Source of the DNA: an uncultured Actinomycetes bacterium
Lineage (GTDB): Bacteria; Actinomycetota; Thermoleophilia; RBG-16-64-13
Length of the DNA: 54,236 nucleotides
Reading direction: 5' to 3'
Assembly: GCA_903873715.1 (NCBI GenBank)
Contig: CAIQPS010000110.1
Coordinates: forward strand, 1 to 54,236
The notes beneath the pieces were generated by a model. It was not told the DNA's origin. It did not search any database and saw only the letters and a list, made by a program, of their open reading frames with translations. This document shows positions 17,977 through 29,589 of this stretch, in pieces (positions within the stretch are counted from its first letter, which is position 1; the number at the start of each line of letters is the position of its first letter). The position numbers and the translations under genes are program-made.

Positions 17977-18007
17977 GCGGCGAGCGCGGGAAGGAGTGAC
18001 GATCTAC

Positions 18008-19714
18008 ATGGATGCGCGCAACACGCAGGACCTGATCCTCGCCGCCGACGTGCTCGTGGTGGGAGGGGGCATCGCCGGACTGACGGCAGCCATCAGCGCC
18101 AAGGAAGCCGATCCGGCCGTCTCCGTGCTCGTGGTCGACAAGGCCACCTGCGGGTTCGGTGGCAAAGCCAACAAGGGCGGCGGTAACCTGGCCTTCCTCG
18201 AGCCGGACGACGACCTCGACGAGATGCTCCGGTTCCGGGTGGAGAAGGTGGGCTCCTATCTCGAGGACCAGGAACTGCTCCGCGATTTCCTCTCCGGGAC
18301 CTACGGGGTGCTCAAGCGCATCGAGACGTGGGGTTGCACCGTGTTCCACGACCCGGACGGCGCCTACGTGTACGTGCGGTACTGGGAGGGGCATCCCTGG
18401 CGGATGGCGCTGTGCGAGCAGGACATCACCGAGAGCATGCTTCGGCAGGCCAAGAAGCTGGGCGTGAAGTTCGTGGACCACGTGTCCGTCGTCGACATCC
18501 TCAAGGACGGGGACCGGGCCGCCGGAGCGGTCGGTTTCAGCATCATCGACGGGCGCTTCTACACCTTCAAGACCAAGGCCGTCATCCTCGCCAACGGCTG
18601 CCAGAACTACAAGCTCATGCGCCGCTGGGCCAGCGGCCGGGGCGACGGCATCGCCGCGGCCTACCGGGCCGGCGCCGAGATGCGCAACGCCGAGTTCGGG
18701 AGCTTCATCAACTGGGTGTTCGCCGACACCAAAGAGGTCTGCCAGGGCGCCGAGAACGTGCTCTACAACGCCAAGGGCGAGAACATCTCCAAGGCCGTGA
18801 GGCCGAAGATCGAGGCCGACCTCGACTCCAAAGAGGTCGTCGCCTGGTACAAGGCCATGCTCGCCGGCGACGGCCCGGTCTACGCGAACATGCCCGAGAA
18901 CGAGATCGCGGCCTTCAGCCAGAAGGCCTTCCACAGCGACGGGGTGGCCGTCCGGCCGATCACCACCGCCTTCTGGACCCGGACCATCGGCAAGGCCATG
19001 GCTGCGTCGACCAAGCCGGGGCCCATGCAGGAGGTCTTCCCGGGATTCATCGGGGAGCAGTCCCCGGTGCGGGTGGATCATCAGATGGCCACCACGGTGC
19101 CGGGGCTCTACGCGGTGGGCGACATCGCTGCCGCGGGTTCGGCGTGGGCCGGCGCGGTGCCGGCGCCCCCCGGCCGCATGCGCGGCGGGGGCATGATGGG
19201 CGCGATGTGGATGGCCATGCGCGGCGGACCGGCTGCGGCCGGATACGCGGCGACGGCGGGCGAGCCGGCCGTGGACGCCGCCCAGGTGGAGGCGCTCAAG
19301 GCGCGGATGTTCGCCCCGCTCGGCCGCCAGGGGGGCATCGAGCCCCAGGAGATGGTCCGCGCCGTCCAGGATGTGCTGTCGCCGGTCGGCAACACCATCT
19401 ACAAGAGCGACGCGCGCCTGCGGGATTCCTTGGAGCGCATCCTGGCGATCAAAGGGCAACTCGCTCTGCTCACCGCCGACGACCCGCACCACCTGGCCGC
19501 CTGCAACGAGGTCGTCTCCATGGTCAACAGCGCGGAGATGTTCTTCGTGGCCTCGCTCGAACGCAAGGAATCCCGGGGATGGCAGATCCGGGAAGACTAT
19601 CCCGAGCGCGACGACGCGGAGTGGCTCAAGTGGGTGGTCCTGAAGGATGATGGGGGAGAGATGAAGGTCTGGACGGAGGATGTCCCCATAGACCGGTACC
19701 CGCTCAAGCCGTGA
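18008..19714 (+). CDS. FAD flavoprotein of the fumarate reductase / adenylylsulfate reductase alpha type
   Basis: About 568 residues. The N-terminal FAD site is VLVVGGGIAGLTAAISAKEA. A ...GFGGKANKGGGNL segment follows, and the C-terminal FAD contact is GLYAVGDIAAAGSAWAGAV. A helical C-terminal region (about 440-568) follows, as in SdhA, FrdA and AprA. I chose ATG 18008 because the ribosome site AAGGAG (17991-17996) overlaps the alternative GTG at 17996. It probably forms a cytoplasmic complex with the ferredoxin encoded just upstream and performs a two-electron reduction or oxidation. I could not identify the fumarate-reductase His/Arg set or an AMP-sulfate site, so the substrate is open. The neighbours suggest a catabolic intermediate. 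Confidence 0.85.
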   Translation: MDARNTQDLILAADVLVVGGGIAGLTAAISAKEADPAVSVLVVDKATCGFGGKANKGGGNLAFLEPDDDLDEMLRFRVEKVGSYLEDQELLRDFLSGTYGVLKRIETWGCTVFHDPDGAYVYVRYWEGHPWRMALCEQDITESMLRQAKKLGVKFVDHVSVVDILKDGDRAAGAVGFSIIDGRFYTFKTKAVILANGCQNYKLMRRWASGRGDGIAAAYRAGAEMRNAEFGSFINWVFADTKEVCQGAENVLYNAKGENISKAVRPKIEADLDSKEVVAWYKAMLAGDGPVYANMPENEIAAFSQKAFHSDGVAVRPITTAFWTRTIGKAMAASTKPGPMQEVFPGFIGEQSPVRVDHQMATTVPGLYAVGDIAAAGSAWAGAVPAPPGRMRGGGMMGAMWMAMRGGPAAAGYAATAGEPAVDAAQVEALKARMFAPLGRQGGIEPQEMVRAVQDVLSPVGNTIYKSDARLRDSLERILAIKGQLALLTADDPHHLAACNEVVSMVNSAEMFFVASLERKESRGWQIREDYPERDDAEWLKWVVLKDDGGEMKVWTEDVPIDRYPLKP

Positions 19715-19759: not shown

Positions 19760-20518
19760 ATGCTGCGCAGTTTCGCCCTCCACGACGTAGCCCTGAACCA
19801 CATCGCGGCACTGGAGCGCTGGTACTACCGGGACCACGCGCCCGAGATCGTGCGGCGCTACGGGCCCTGGATGACCCGGTTCGAGTGCTATCTGCCGGTC
19901 CCGGTGCCGGAGGAGGCCCAGGTGTACGGCTTCCACAACTGGAGGATGACCGAGGGCTGGTGGCGCCACCTGCCCGAGACGGGCACGCAAGACGATCTCT
20001 GCTTCACCCCGCCGCCGGTGTGGGCTCGGGTGGCGCCGGTGTTCGTGCCGCCGCAGCCGACGGAGCACTTCCTCGCATGCGACTGGCTGCCCCTGGAGAA
20101 GTCCTGCATCCGCTGGCTGATGCTGCTGCGCTACCCCGGTTGGGTGCCCGCGGACGTGGGCGACGAGTGGTTCTTGCGCGTGCACGCGCCCGAAGTGGCG
20201 GCACTGCCGGGCCTCGTCCGGTTCCTGAGCTGGAAGGCGCTGGCAGATGTGGGCCATGTTCCGGGCCGTTGGCGGCCGGACACCGCGCCTCCGGCGGGCA
20301 ACGTGCAGCCGCACTGGCATCGGGTCGCGGAACTGTGGTTCGAGACCCTCGACGATTGGCGTGAGTTCGTGGAGGCCGCTGCTTCCTGCAGCCGGCCGAA
20401 GTGGGCCACGGCGCCGTCGTACCCCTTTCTGCGGCCCTACGAAGGACTGGCGAGCACCTTTCTGCTCGAACGCCCCAACGACGATTTTCTGCGCGATCTC
20501 CGCGGCTACGTGCCCTGA
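19760..20518 (+). CDS. EthD-like dimeric alpha-beta barrel protein
   Basis: A 252-residue soluble protein with two related halves. Each has the EthD-type pattern of an early hydrophobic strand and a helix with HxPE-like spacing: WYYRDHAPEIVRRYGPWMTRFECY in the first half and VHAPEVAALPGLVRFLSW in the second. Both are followed by an aromatic-rich strand (ELWFETLDDWREF). Proteins of this fold bind or transform aromatic or polyketide-like compounds, and some are degradation accessory proteins. ATG at 19760 is preceded by GAGGAAGG and lies 45 bp after the flavoprotein stop, so it is probably the last gene of that operon. The His residues of the two HAPE motifs are candidate functional residues. 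Confidence 0.7.
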   Translation: MLRSFALHDVALNHIAALERWYYRDHAPEIVRRYGPWMTRFECYLPVPVPEEAQVYGFHNWRMTEGWWRHLPETGTQDDLCFTPPPVWARVAPVFVPPQPTEHFLACDWLPLEKSCIRWLMLLRYPGWVPADVGDEWFLRVHAPEVAALPGLVRFLSWKALADVGHVPGRWRPDTAPPAGNVQPHWHRVAELWFETLDDWREFVEAAASCSRPKWATAPSYPFLRPYEGLASTFLLERPNDDFLRDLRGYVP

Positions 20519-20577: not shown

Positions 20578-20595
20578 CTGGTATACTCATACCAG
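20578..20595 (+). promoter_or_regulatory. Extended -10 promoter overlapped by a palindromic operator
   Basis: TG-G-TATACT (20579-20587) is an extended -10 element with no matching -35. The perfect palindrome CTGGTAT-ACTC-ATACCAG (20578-20595) covers it completely, so a bound regulator would block initiation. It serves the dehydrogenase-SDR pair starting at 20642. Confidence 0.6.
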
Positions 20596-20641
20596 TTTTG
20601 TGGGGCGCGTGCCCTGCCGTCGTCAATCCTCTCGGAGTCAC

Positions 20642-21592
20642 GTGGACCTAGGGAAAGTCGCTATATTCGGGGCGGGCACGATGGGGCCGGGCCTGGCTCA
20701 GGTGTTCGCCACCGCCGGGTTCGATGTGGCCCTCTGGTCGCGGACGGATGCCACGCTCGAGAAAGCCGCCTCCGTCATCGCCGCGAACCTCGCCACCTTC
20801 TCGGAGCGGGGGATCATCGAGCCTTCCGACATCCCGGTCATCGCGGGGCGTATCGCCCCCACGCAGTCGTTGGAGGAGGCAGGCACCGGAGCAGGCCTGG
20901 TGGTGGAGAACATCATCGAGGACCGGGCGGCCAAGACCGTCCTGTTCGAGCAACTCGACCGCATCTGCCCCGACGGCGCCATCTTCGCCAGCGACACGTC
21001 GTATCTCAACATCTTCGAGATGGTGCCCGCAAGGCGCCTTCCCGAGACCGTCATCGCCCACTGGTTCGCGCCGCCGCACATCATCCCCCTCGTGGAGGTG
21101 GTGCGGGGTCCCGAGACCCTGGACGAGACGGTCGATACCGTCGTGGAACTGATCAAACGGGTGGGCCACGTTCCCACCGTCATGGAGAAGTTCGTCTCCG
21201 GGTTCTGCGTCAACCGGCTCTTGCGGGGCATCGGCCGGGAGGTGCTGTACCTGCTCGACAACGGCTACATGACACCCGAGCAACTCGACATCGCGGTGAA
21301 GGCGAGCATCATCCCCCGCGCGATGGTGCTGGGCTTCGTGCAGCGATACGACTTCACCGGGCTGGACCTCGCCTACAACAACCTGCACAACAAGTGCTTC
21401 GTCGACGCTCCGGTGGAGAGCGAACCGCGCAGCCTTCAGGAGAGGGTGGAGCGGGGAGATCTCGGGGCCAAGACCGGCAAAGGGTTCTTCGATTACGAGG
21501 GCAGACCGCTGGAGGAGATCCTCCGCGAACGCGACGCGGCGATGCTCGACGTTTTCAACGATATGAAAGACCGTATCTACAAGCGGATATAG
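20642..21592 (+). CDS. 3-hydroxyacyl-CoA dehydrogenase family protein
   Basis: A 316-residue enzyme. Its N-terminal NAD Rossmann motif is KVAIFGAGTMGPGLAQVFATAGFDVALW. The catalytic region is FASDTSYLNIFEM, then AHWFAPPHIIPLVEVVRG with the family His and Glu. Next comes GFCVNRLLRGIGREVLYLLDNGYMTPEQLDIAVK, and it ends GAKTGKGFFDY. Length is usual for the single-function form. It oxidises a 3-hydroxyacyl-CoA or a related hydroxy acid. The HWFAPP variant of the common HFFNP suggests a non-standard substrate. GTG start at 20642, after GGAG. It is 16 bp upstream of an SDR gene, and they likely form a two-gene operon. Confidence 0.9.
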   Translation: MDLGKVAIFGAGTMGPGLAQVFATAGFDVALWSRTDATLEKAASVIAANLATFSERGIIEPSDIPVIAGRIAPTQSLEEAGTGAGLVVENIIEDRAAKTVLFEQLDRICPDGAIFASDTSYLNIFEMVPARRLPETVIAHWFAPPHIIPLVEVVRGPETLDETVDTVVELIKRVGHVPTVMEKFVSGFCVNRLLRGIGREVLYLLDNGYMTPEQLDIAVKASIIPRAMVLGFVQRYDFTGLDLAYNNLHNKCFVDAPVESEPRSLQERVERGDLGAKTGKGFFDYEGRPLEEILRERDAAMLDVFNDMKDRIYKRI

Positions 21593-21608
21593 ACCTGGGA
21601 GGACATGT

Positions 21609-22421
21609 ATGGACACGTCGGCGCGAAAACCCAAACCTGCTGATCTCGAGGGCCTGTTCTCCCTCGCCGGCAAGAACGTCGTGGTCGTCGGTGGCGCCGG
21701 TGGTATCGGCCGGGGGCTCGCCTCGGGCATGCTGGCCTACGGCGCGAAGGTCGCCATCGCCGACGTCAACCTCAGCGCTCTCGAGACTGCGGTGGAGGAA
21801 CTCAAGGAGTTCGGCGACGGGAGCGTCCTGAGCTATCGCCTCGACACCAACGAGGAAGCCAACATCGAGGAGTTCGCGGCCAAGGTCATCGCCGACATGG
21901 GCGGCCGGGTACACATCCTCATCAACGCCCAGGGCTTCAACACCAAGGCGCCGGCCACCGAGTTCCCCGCGGCCGACTGGGACAAGCTTTTCATGGTGAA
22001 CGTCCGCGGCGTCATGCTGTGCTGCAAGCACTTCGCCAAGCATTTCGTGGAGCAGGGCGGCGGCAAGATCATCAACCTGTCCTCCATCCGCGGGGCCCGC
22101 GCGGCCCTCGGTGGCAACCTGGCCTATTGCTCCAGCAAGGGCGCCATCGACATGATGACCAAACAGCTGGCCGTCGAGCTCGCGTCGAAACACGTGAACG
22201 TCAACGCCATCGCGCCGGTCATCACCATCACCCCGATGACCGAAGAGCGCGTCAAGCGTGAGGCCGACCGCTACGAGAAGATGCTGGTGAACATCCCCAT
22301 GGGCCGGATGGGCCAGGTGTTCGACCTCATCGGACCGGCGGTCTTCCTCGCCTCCCCGGCGTCCGACTTCGTCACCGGCAGCATCATCTACCCCGACGGC
22401 GGGACCATGGCGTTCGTCTAG
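21609..22421 (+). CDS. SDR-family NAD(P)-dependent oxidoreductase
   Basis: A 270-residue classical SDR. Cofactor motif GGAGGIGRG (residues 28-36), INAQG (NAG-like motif), Ser159, Tyr173 and Lys177 (YCSSK) form an intact catalytic set. The C-terminus FVTGSIIYPDGGTMAFV is typical. Asp in IADVN favours NAD. It follows the hydroxyacyl-CoA dehydrogenase by 16 bp with GGGAGGA before the ATG. It is related to the SDR at 9610-10377, which has His in place of Tyr173. The substrate is unknown; a ring ketone or beta-oxo compound would fit the context. Confidence 0.92.
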   Translation: MDTSARKPKPADLEGLFSLAGKNVVVVGGAGGIGRGLASGMLAYGAKVAIADVNLSALETAVEELKEFGDGSVLSYRLDTNEEANIEEFAAKVIADMGGRVHILINAQGFNTKAPATEFPAADWDKLFMVNVRGVMLCCKHFAKHFVEQGGGKIINLSSIRGARAALGGNLAYCSSKGAIDMMTKQLAVELASKHVNVNAIAPVITITPMTEERVKREADRYEKMLVNIPMGRMGQVFDLIGPAVFLASPASDFVTGSIIYPDGGTMAFV

Positions 22422-22477
22422 CACCAGACCGTCTCGAGAAGCGGCGCCGCTCCGGCGCCGTGGCAGAGTCACACCGG

Positions 22478-22505
22478 ACCGCGGGCCCCAGGGCCCGCGG
22501 TCTTA
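22478..22505 (+). terminator. Terminator between convergent genes
   Basis: Inverted repeat 22478-22488 / 22491-22501 (about 9-10 usable GC pairs) followed by CTTATTCT on the plus strand. A second GGCGCC-rich repeat lies just upstream (22442-22460). It separates the SDR from the MerR-TetR regulator. Confidence 0.5.
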
Positions 22506-23483
22506 TTCTAGGGCTGGTCCGCCCGCCGCCGGCGCGGGGGGCGGGACCGGGGCAGCCGCCGCGGCGGGGACCGCCGGCGCGGGCTCCGCGGCCAACCGGG
22601 AGAGCAGTCCGTCGTACGCCGCGACCCGGGCGTCGATGTCCACTTCTCCGTTCCGGGCGGCCTGCGCCGCCAGGAACAGCCAGAGCCTGGCTTCCAGGAC
22701 CTCCCGGCGGCTGTACTCACGGCCGAGCGGGGGCAGCGAAAGAGGCTGATAGCTGGCGAACAGATTGAGGGCGAGCAGGTCGGCCGGGATGCGCGAAGGG
22801 CGGGCGCCGCCGGGCCCGGCGGGATCGAGGGCGCGGGTGATGCGGTCGACCTCGGTGGCCAGGGCCTCGTGCATGAGGCCCTGGAGGCCGTCTTCGTCGT
22901 CCGCTCCCTCCACCCGCATCACCGCCAGCGCCGACGAAGCCAGGGCGAACGATTCGGTGTGGCCGTGCAGGTCCCACAGCAGGCGTTCGGCAGGGTCGGC
23001 GGCCTGCGCCTCCTTCTCGTCTGCGTATGCGGTGCTCCAAGCGATGGATGCCGCCACGCACTCCGCCAGGAGACGGCGCTTGCTCGGGAAGTGGCTGTAG
23101 AAGAGGGTGGCGGTGATGCCCAGGCGGCGCATGATGGCCGTCACGTGGGTGTTCTTGTAGCCGTTGGCTATGAACTCTCGCGTGGCTTCCTCGACGATGC
23201 GGTCGTGCACGGCGAGCCGCTCCTGGGCGGCAAGGTCCACGGTGCTCTCGTTCGCCTCGTCCAGCCGGGCCTGCAGACGCTCCTCGATCTCCGCGAGAGT
23301 GCGGCCTTGCTCCTTGAGTTCCGCGATCGCCAGGAGAATGGCCACGTGCTCGTCCGTGTAGAGCGAGCGGCTGGCCGCGGTCTTCTGGGCCCGGGGCAGC
23401 AGGCCCTGGCGCAGGTAGAAGTGGATGGTCGTCCGGGGGAGCCCGGTGGTCTGCTGCAGGTCGCGGATGGTGTAGGCACGCAT
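22503..23483 (-). CDS. MerR-TetR fusion transcription regulator
   Basis: A 326-residue protein with two DNA-binding parts. Residues 1 to about 75 are a MerR winged helix (YTIRDLQQTTGLPRTTIHFYLRQGLLP, SLYTDEHVAILLAIAELKEQG). A charged, probably coiled linker (about 75-105) follows. Then comes a TetR helix-turn-helix (RIVEEATREFIANGYKNTHVTAIMRRLGITATLFYSHFPSKRRLLAECV, shown in part) and a helical ligand domain. The last 30 residues are Ala/Pro-rich and probably disordered. It lies convergent to the dehydrogenase-SDR pair. GGTAT/ATACC palindromes occur at that pair's promoter and at its own, so both are candidate targets. The promoter fits a leaderless mRNA. Confidence 0.88.
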   Translation of the reverse strand: MRAYTIRDLQQTTGLPRTTIHFYLRQGLLPRAQKTAASRSLYTDEHVAILLAIAELKEQGRTLAEIEERLQARLDEANESTVDLAAQERLAVHDRIVEEATREFIANGYKNTHVTAIMRRLGITATLFYSHFPSKRRLLAECVAASIAWSTAYADEKEAQAADPAERLLWDLHGHTESFALASSALAVMRVEGADDEDGLQGLMHEALATEVDRITRALDPAGPGGARPSRIPADLLALNLFASYQPLSLPPLGREYSRREVLEARLWLFLAAQAARNGEVDIDARVAAYDGLLSRLAAEPAPAVPAAAAAPVPPPAPAAGGPALE

Positions 23484-23489
23484 ACCTGC

Positions 23490-23529
23490 ACACTACCACC
23501 GTAGAGAATCGGGTATCAAGTCGCATACC
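23490..23529 (-). promoter_or_regulatory. Leaderless promoter and operator of the MerR-TetR gene
   Basis: On the minus strand, TTGATA (complement of 23514-23519), 18 bp, then TAGTGT (complement of 23490-23495). Six bases separate the -10 box from the ATG, so transcription would start at or next to the start codon. The palindrome GGTAT-N8-ATACC (23512-23529) overlaps the -35 box. Confidence 0.5.
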
Positions 23530-23536
23530 GAAGGGG

Positions 23537-23580
23537 AAAAAGAAACGGCCCCTGGAAGGGGGGCTTCCAGAGACCGTTTC
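23537..23580 (-). terminator. Terminator of the molybdoenzyme operon
   Basis: A long two-part stem: GAAACGG/CCGTTTC (23542-23548/23574-23580) outside and CTGGAAG/CTTCCAG (23552-23558/23564-23570) inside. On the minus strand it is followed by five T (complement of 23537-23541). It lies about 220 bp after the catalytic subunit stop, so the mRNA has a long 3' region. Confidence 0.8.
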
Positions 23581-28920: not shown

Positions 28921-29589
28921 TCAGGCGGAGGGTTCGAGCGAGGCGAGCACCGATTCTATGAGTCCCCGCATCAGGTCCATAGTCCCGCGCACGTCCACGC
29001 AGCCGGGCTCGGCGAGCGTCTGGACCGAGAGGCCGTCGGGTAGCGCGACCAGCATGGCGGCCAGGTCGTGCACGATCTGGGGCGGTTCTCCGGGCCGGTC
29101 GCCCCACAGCGCCCGCACGTTGACCTCGCGATAGGTCCTGTAGAGCTCCGCGAGTTGCCGGGTCATGCTGGGGTTCTCCAGAAGCCTCGGCAAGAGGTCG
29201 AACAGCAGACGGTAGGACGGGGCGTCCGCCGCGATGGACTCCATGGTATCCGCCAGCACGCTCGCCCGGTCGTGGGCGCCGGAGAGCCCGGAAAGCCTCT
29301 GCCTGGCCCCACTCAGGGTCTGGGAGATGAGCGCGTCGGTCAGGGCCACGAGGAGCCCGTTCTTGGAGCCGAAGTAGTAGCGGATGAGGGCCTTGTTCTC
29401 TCCGGCCTCCTGGCCGATGGCCTCCACGGAAAGGGAGTTGTAGCCCGAGCGGACGAGCAGCCTGTGGGCCGCGTCCAACAGCCGCTGGGCTGTGGGAGGC
29501 CAACCGGGCTGCGCCCCGGGCAGGAGCGCGTCGCTGCGGCCGGCGCTCTCGCGCGGCTTCCGGCTCGTCTTCCTGCTGTTCGTCGGCAT
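28921..29589 (-). CDS. TetR-family transcription regulator
   Basis: A 222-residue protein. The helix-turn-helix is at about 33-78 (AAHRLLVRSGYNSLSVEAIGQEAGENKALIRYYFGSKNGLLVALTD, quoted in part). A helical ligand domain follows. The first 30 residues are basic. ATG is preceded by GGGAAGGGAG. It is divergent from alanine dehydrogenase across a 256-bp gap, so regulation of the ald-aminotransferase genes is possible. It ends 29 bp from the convergent IclR gene. Confidence 0.88.
   Translation of the reverse strand: MPTNSRKTSRKPRESAGRSDALLPGAQPGWPPTAQRLLDAAHRLLVRSGYNSLSVEAIGQEAGENKALIRYYFGSKNGLLVALTDALISQTLSGARQRLSGLSGAHDRASVLADTMESIAADAPSYRLLFDLLPRLLENPSMTRQLAELYRTYREVNVRALWGDRPGEPPQIVHDLAAMLVALPDGLSVQTLAEPGCVDVRGTMDLMRGLIESVLASLEPSA

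Follow-up and report, generated by a model that had tools for sequence, protein, structure and literature searches.

A MerR–TetR two-headed regulator conserved in uncultured Actinomycetota

P0001 is a 326-residue protein that joins a MerR winged helix and a TetR helix-turn-helix (HTH), both intact, in one chain, an architecture that is conserved and co-inherited across its family. Its gene lies on the minus strand at 22503–23483 of the window, meaning the whole stretch of 54,236 nucleotides analysed here, and was defined by its open reading frame (ORF), Pfam domains and homologues. With a probability of roughly 0.45, P0001 is read as a ligand-released, autoregulated repressor of aromatic or polyphenol catabolism, whose dimer would use four heads to grip an extended operator. 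The MerR and TetR families both rank among the commonest bacterial regulators and differ in their DNA-binding logic, and a conserved fusion means that both are workable in one chain. Such a protein would offer a ready-made composite-operator switch for design, as well as a handle on the control of polyphenol breakdown in uncultured Actinomycetota.

Two conserved heads in one polypeptide

The reading frame is uninterrupted, running on the minus strand from an ATG at 23483 to a stop that ends at 22503, and all of the following segments lie on that strand. The MerR winged-helix head (residues 4–72; 23268–23474) is identified by Pfam, by matches to solved MerR proteins and by conservation. The Pfam model MerR_1 covers these residues at 58.7 bits against a cut-off of 21.6 (E 6e-16); the older MerR model, PF00376, scores 25.9, narrowly below its cut-off of 28.2. 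On their own, residues 1–96 match MerR chains of known structure, among them 4ua1 (E 9.6e-6) and CadR. A short linker (residues 73–95; 23199–23267), delimited by conservation and the structure model, leads to the TetR HTH head (residues 96–142; 23058–23198), which is supported by conservation and by a Pfam match to the whole TetR_N profile, positions 1–47, at 44.8 bits (cut-off 24; E 1.1e-11). The usual TetR layout, with the HTH near the N-terminus, is not found, as the HTH starts at residue 96 behind the MerR head. The chain continues with a TetR-type C-terminal domain (residues 143–300; 22584–23057), assigned from the model and fold matches and presumed to serve dimerisation and ligand binding, and closes with a low-confidence Ala/Pro-rich tail (residues 301–326; 22506–22583), recognised from sequence and model. 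NCBIfam returned below-cut-off matches only, to MerR-type metal regulators in the first half and to TetR-type regulators in the second. P0001 contains a single cysteine, which argues against thiol–metal sensing of the MerR/CueR kind.

The original prediction, that a MerR head and a TetR head share a single polypeptide, is thus borne out, with both MerR_1 and TetR_N passing their Pfam cut-offs and equal constraint on the two heads. The first 75 residues, when tested against MerR profiles, match MerR_1, and the domain search and structure prediction proposed at that stage agree, Pfam giving both heads and the model giving MerR helices followed by a TetR fold.

The AlphaFold2 model, computed for the monomer from an 11-sequence alignment, has a mean pLDDT of 81.3 and a pTM of 0.71, with values below 50 in the final 18 residues. 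The MerR head comprises helices at residues 6–13, 17–25, 44–58 and 63–79, with residues 40–42 as the wing strand. A break follows at residues 80–83, the only part of the linker modelled outside helices; next comes a 28-residue helix, 84–111, which runs into the TetR HTH (114–121 and 125–131) and then into the helical C-terminal domain. In Foldseek and VIA-align searches, TetR-family chains, KstR, EthR2 and FadR among them, align over residues 85–280 of the model, and the top VIA-align match is 2nx4_C (Z 14.8, rmsd 2.8, 172 residues aligned). MerR chains are absent from the 50 VIA matches listed, but the TetR domain fills that list, which is therefore uninformative on the MerR head.

Classical MerR proteins carry, after the head, an antiparallel coiled-coil helix that forms the dimer. 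The P0001 monomer model contains no separate helix of this kind, and the extended first TetR helix fills that stretch, so that P0001 would be expected to dimerise through its TetR-type C-terminal domain. The earlier suggestion that the MerR part serves DNA distortion finds no support here, since the segment corresponding to the dimer helix is, in the model, the long helix 84–111 entering the TetR domain.

The host genome (3.33 Mb in 169 contigs) holds three full-length copies, the window gene and two others at 36% and 35% identity. A family profile of 311 positions was built from the 27-member alignment A1, from which two partial sequences (L021 and L022) and one with its MerR head out of frame (L014) were excluded. 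On the host genome this profile gives three matches of 374–447 bits, each extending from profile position 2 to at least position 308. Full or near-full copies at E ≤ 1e-10 were found in 10 of 61 genomes, all of them within the window's family (10 of 18), and in none of the 43 genomes from other families of the class. Across 299 genomes of the class, full-length profile matches (about 300–457 bits) are confined to the window's family, and the best match listed outside it, at 76 bits, covers the TetR part alone. At the level of the phylum, both HTHs are matched at E ≤ 1e-22 in 32 of 396 genomes, the window's own included, extending to eight further families; the order of one of these has members with both heads in 10 of 13 genomes. 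The named records carrying close copies are uncultured Actinomycetota, RBG_16_64_13 included, and among plasmid records 33 have a match, none covering 80% of the query.

Both heads are held under similar constraint. In the 27 aligned sequences, G14, R17, Y23, L29 and P30 are invariant in the MerR head and A100, G108, F132 and K135 in the TetR head, and no invariant column occurs in the C-terminal domain. The mean share of the majority residue is 0.646 in the MerR head and 0.635 in TetR_N, compared with 0.475 in the linker and 0.471 in residues 143–300. In a wider set of 58 members (28 from the window's family and 30 from one other order), every sequence retains G108 and K135, and G14 and Y23 are found in 57. 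Pairwise identities of the N-terminal and C-terminal halves correlate (r 0.79 over 1653 pairs of the 58 members; 0.64 within the window's family), a pattern that joint inheritance of the halves would produce.

Misassembly or chance fusion was considered and ruled out, because the same order and similar spacing recur full-length in the host and in many genomes. A vestigial MerR or TetR head is not favoured either, given the invariant residues in both and their equal constraint. Separately, the member L014 (contig C1 of genome G005, at about 3,558,200) has its MerR head split over two frames, with tblastn pieces at 1430–1516 and 1504–2361, reflecting either a broken head or an assembly error at that place.

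Catabolic neighbourhoods and candidate operators

Within the window, a plus-strand run of genes converges on the regulator. This run opens with a fumarate-reductase-like flavoprotein (17996–19714), followed by a Chalcone_N (PF18232) protein (19760–20518) with no other Pfam domain, a 3-hydroxyacyl-CoA dehydrogenase (20600–21592) and a short-chain dehydrogenase (SDR; 21609–22421). The last two are presumed targets within the same operon, and the start of the 3-hydroxyacyl-CoA dehydrogenase is probably 20642, as residue 19 of the listed ORF is where its domain starts. Relatives of the Chalcone_N protein (44% identity) on two contigs of other genomes (G001:C9 and G004:C132) are flanked on each side by a PhlG-type hydrolase gene, with other fusions nearby, and the window protein may act on flavonoids or phloroglucinol products. 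Upstream of the regulator, on the same strand, an operon encodes molybdopterin oxidoreductase, NrfD and ferredoxin-like proteins. A terminator-like hairpin of 17 pairs followed by a T-run (23542–23580, minus strand) separates the regulator from this Mo-enzyme operon, which makes it probable that the regulator has its own promoter downstream of the hairpin. Near the same operon, a stand-alone TetR gene with TetR_C_6/TetR_C_31 C-terminal domains is found at 28921–29589. When the synteny of the window was compared with that of the nearest relatives, L076 and L077, the regulator alone was matched.

Genes beside other members of the family encode hydrolases of the DAPG/phloretin-hydrolase type (PF18089, PhlG), EthD, Chalcone_N, old-yellow-enzyme-type, flavoprotein and URO-D proteins, and some members adjoin branched-chain-type ABC importers. 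PF18089 is present in 11 of the 41 genomes searched, all of the window's family. Among the fusion-bearing genomes of that family, all 10 carry PhlG, as against 1 of 8 without a fusion (P 2.5e-4), although the genomes in these counts are related (4 of the 10 share one genus) and their contigs short. PhlG-type genes lie within 5 kb of a fusion in 11 of 21 cases, where uniform placement would give 0.29; the 21 derive from 22 PF18089 matches by merging two pieces at G015:C33. Seen from the fusions, 8 of 33 have a PhlG-type gene within 5 kb, the window's own not being among them; for these co-localisation counts, G006:C245, which retains the TetR part only, was dropped from 34 places, G006:C42 was entered at its position in the profile search of the class, and G015:C33 was taken as one joined place. 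The window's own contig has no PF18089 match. These numbers show association rather than exclusivity, and the fusions often sit in polyphenol or aromatic catabolic neighbourhoods. According to PMC12203004, the genus RBG-16-64-13 is one of nine that expressed FCR, PHY and/or CHI, of flavonoid degradation, in catechin-amended peat.

In one clade (L080, L082, L084 and L085), a conserved operon for a branched-chain-type ABC importer comes after the fusion, with proteins of 292 and about 910 residues, and the proteins of this operon are 72–92% identical across loci. The transporter is possibly an aromatic-acid importer under control of the fusion.

The two sites named in the original prediction, at 20578 and 23512, both exist. 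The first is a perfect inverted repeat, CTGGTAT-N4-ATACCAG (20578–20595), before the 3-hydroxyacyl-CoA dehydrogenase gene, with the core GGTAT-N4-ATACC at 20580–20593. The second, GGTAT-N8-ATACC (23512–23529), is a candidate autoregulatory operator that lies 28 bp before the regulator's ATG, with the terminator-like hairpin on its other side. It had been proposed that P0001 could bind two operator types; the common half-site GGTAT/ATACC instead favours one type, though the spacers differ (4 versus 8), which is unusual for one dimer.

The pattern GGTAT-N(0–14)-ATACC has two matches in 54 kb, and shuffled sequences average 0.09, with 0 of 100 reaching two, a comparison to be read with the motif having been picked after it was noticed. 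A test that admitted every 5-mer inverted half-site common to the two intergenic regions gave one in 411 of 5000 shuffles; confined to the 120 bp next to the regulator, it gave one in 17 of 5000. Genome-wide, the GGTAT pattern has 11 sites, compared with 4 for a reversed control. The strictest of the shuffle tests is only suggestive, and the GGTAT repeat is accordingly treated as a good candidate for the operator in the window and no more.

Additionally, other members were searched for repeats of their own. In a clade adjoining ABC importers, AGTC-N3-GACT precedes the regulator in 3 of 5 members (0 of 300 shuffles) and is absent upstream in the other 2; across 20 neighbourhood loci (315,818 bases) it has four sites, of which three are the ones at these regulators. 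No inverted repeat was shared above chance in a second clade (159 of 300 shuffles reached its maximum) or with all members pooled (48 of 60 shuffles), and palindromes upstream of 29 family members, compared by eye, had no repeat in common. In general, it is plausible that these regulators have an inverted-repeat operator at their own promoters.

Proposed mechanism and alternative readings

We infer a double grip, an operator, a ligand and a mode of regulation that would fit together as follows. The pair of TetR HTHs would sit on the central inverted repeat, the dimer being held by the TetR-type C-terminal domain, and the MerR heads, fused almost directly to TetR helix 1, would hold the DNA on either side; the result would be a four-head clamp on a composite operator, with tighter repression. 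In the absence of ligand, P0001 would repress itself through 23512–23529 and the 3-hydroxyacyl-CoA dehydrogenase and SDR genes through 20578–20595, targets suggested by the positions of the candidate sites. An aromatic or polyphenol-derived metabolite, possibly a CoA thioester, would bind the C-terminal domain and cause release. Ligand-controlled repression by the TetR part, which the original prediction had put forward, is plausible in this respect, the C-terminal part having a TetR fold. A broader claim, that these proteins form a distinct, widely conserved actinobacterial class in which the four heads of a dimer, of two unrelated kinds, act on one composite operator, and that in this lineage they provide local control of anaerobic flavonoid and polyphenol breakdown, is doubtful.

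The most serious competitor to the four-head clamp is that the TetR HTH alone reads the operator, leaving the MerR head free for another role, for instance binding to a second dimer, a partner protein or RNA polymerase. It is common for TetR-type repressors to act on their own, candidate repeats as compact as the two found here (14–18 bp) would suffice for one TetR dimer, and the usual MerR dimer helix is not a separate element in the model. Against this, the MerR head is as constrained as the TetR head and has invariant residues, which suggests DNA contact, and the division of labour is considered somewhat unlikely.

It is also conceivable, with lower probability, that the GGTAT repeats arose by chance or serve a different regulator, for instance the stand-alone TetR protein encoded 5.4 kb away, and that P0001 acts elsewhere. 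The spacer mismatch between the repeats and the outcome of the widest shuffle test point in this direction, but the sites lie at P0001's own promoter region and at the adjacent operon, as is usual for a local autoregulator.

An unlikely third possibility makes the MerR head a promoter-specific reader, able to activate, with the TetR part mainly providing dimerisation and ligand sensing. The repeat at 20578 overlaps a TATACT that has no good -35 partner, as at activator-dependent promoters, and a close MerR head is joined to another C-terminal part in some Chloroflexota proteins, indicating that the head can work without TetR. MerR-type operators occupy the 19–20 bp that separate the -35 and -10 elements. 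A scan for sigma-70-type promoters, limited to the usual spacers of 16–18 nt and thus blind to a MerR-type spacer of 19–20 nt, found none at either site, and this weighs against both activation and the DNA distortion mentioned above; the TetR HTH, moreover, is fully conserved (G108 and K135 as above). Still less likely is binding of the heads to separate places, with the protein bridging or looping DNA, for example from 20580 to 23512. The two candidate sites lie about 2.9 kb apart, one on each side of the regulated genes, and the presumed dimer would have four heads, which would allow it; the half-site, however, is identical at both, so that a plain two-site repressor explains them, and the model separates the heads by few residues.

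Relation to known regulators

Domain databases list rare mixed HTH architectures. No description of a MerR–TetR protein was found in the literature searched, which includes few subscription journals, and the available portions of PMC9304148, PMC7017128, PMC12238238 and PMC10805028 contain no such protein. Within that literature, a conserved MerR–TetR family of uncultured Actinomycetota is apparently undescribed, although its parts are of known kinds.

Among the best 60 of 159 PDB matches listed for the family profile, no chain is matched across both heads. PDB 4ich was considered as a solved MerR–TetR protein and rejected, its N-terminal part being unmatched by either the family profile or a MerR-head-only profile (E up to 10); a related fusion protein aligns with 4ich from chain position 113 onward only. 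In 4ich, 4nel, 4jnn and 4kwa, all from Saccharomonospora viridis, the TetR domains are numbered from about 93, leaving roughly 90 residues that precede them, and the parent protein is perhaps yet another fused TetR.

With the TetR-family catabolic repressors FadR, FasR, KstR/KstR2 and EthR2, its neighbours in structure, P0001 shares the TetR HTH and the all-helical C-terminal domain, and several repressors of this type bind acyl-CoA or hydrophobic ligands. PhlF and PhlH, located beside phlG in Pseudomonas, act on the same hydrolase family as the PhlG-type neighbours described here. P0001 differs from the catabolic repressors by the MerR head placed directly before TetR helix 1, and to our knowledge none of FadR, FasR, KstR/KstR2, EthR2 and PhlF/PhlH has an N-terminal MerR head.

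The winged-helix head of P0001 matches the profiles of the MerR family, represented by 4ua1, CadR, CueR, Mta, BmrR and CarH. Unlike those regulators, P0001 has one cysteine only and, in the model, lacks both a separate coiled-coil helix and a MerR-type effector domain, its C-terminal part being a whole TetR protein. The Chloroflexota proteins L044 and L045 also carry a MerR head that the family profile recognises at 66.9 and 72.0 bits, but the profile finds no TetR part in them, in contrast to P0001. These proteins (L044:6001-6762 and L045:5992-6741) have about 250 residues, and by eye a second MerR-like head replaces TetR, so that they are perhaps another two-headed kind.

The closest solved counterpart of the family profile as a whole is Mce3R (9b7y), the best PDB match (E 3.5e-21) among the same best 60 of 159. 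Mce3R contains two TetR modules in one chain and thus, like P0001, carries two DNA-reading modules per polypeptide; both of its modules are TetR, whereas P0001 combines one MerR module with a TetR module and has a single ligand domain.
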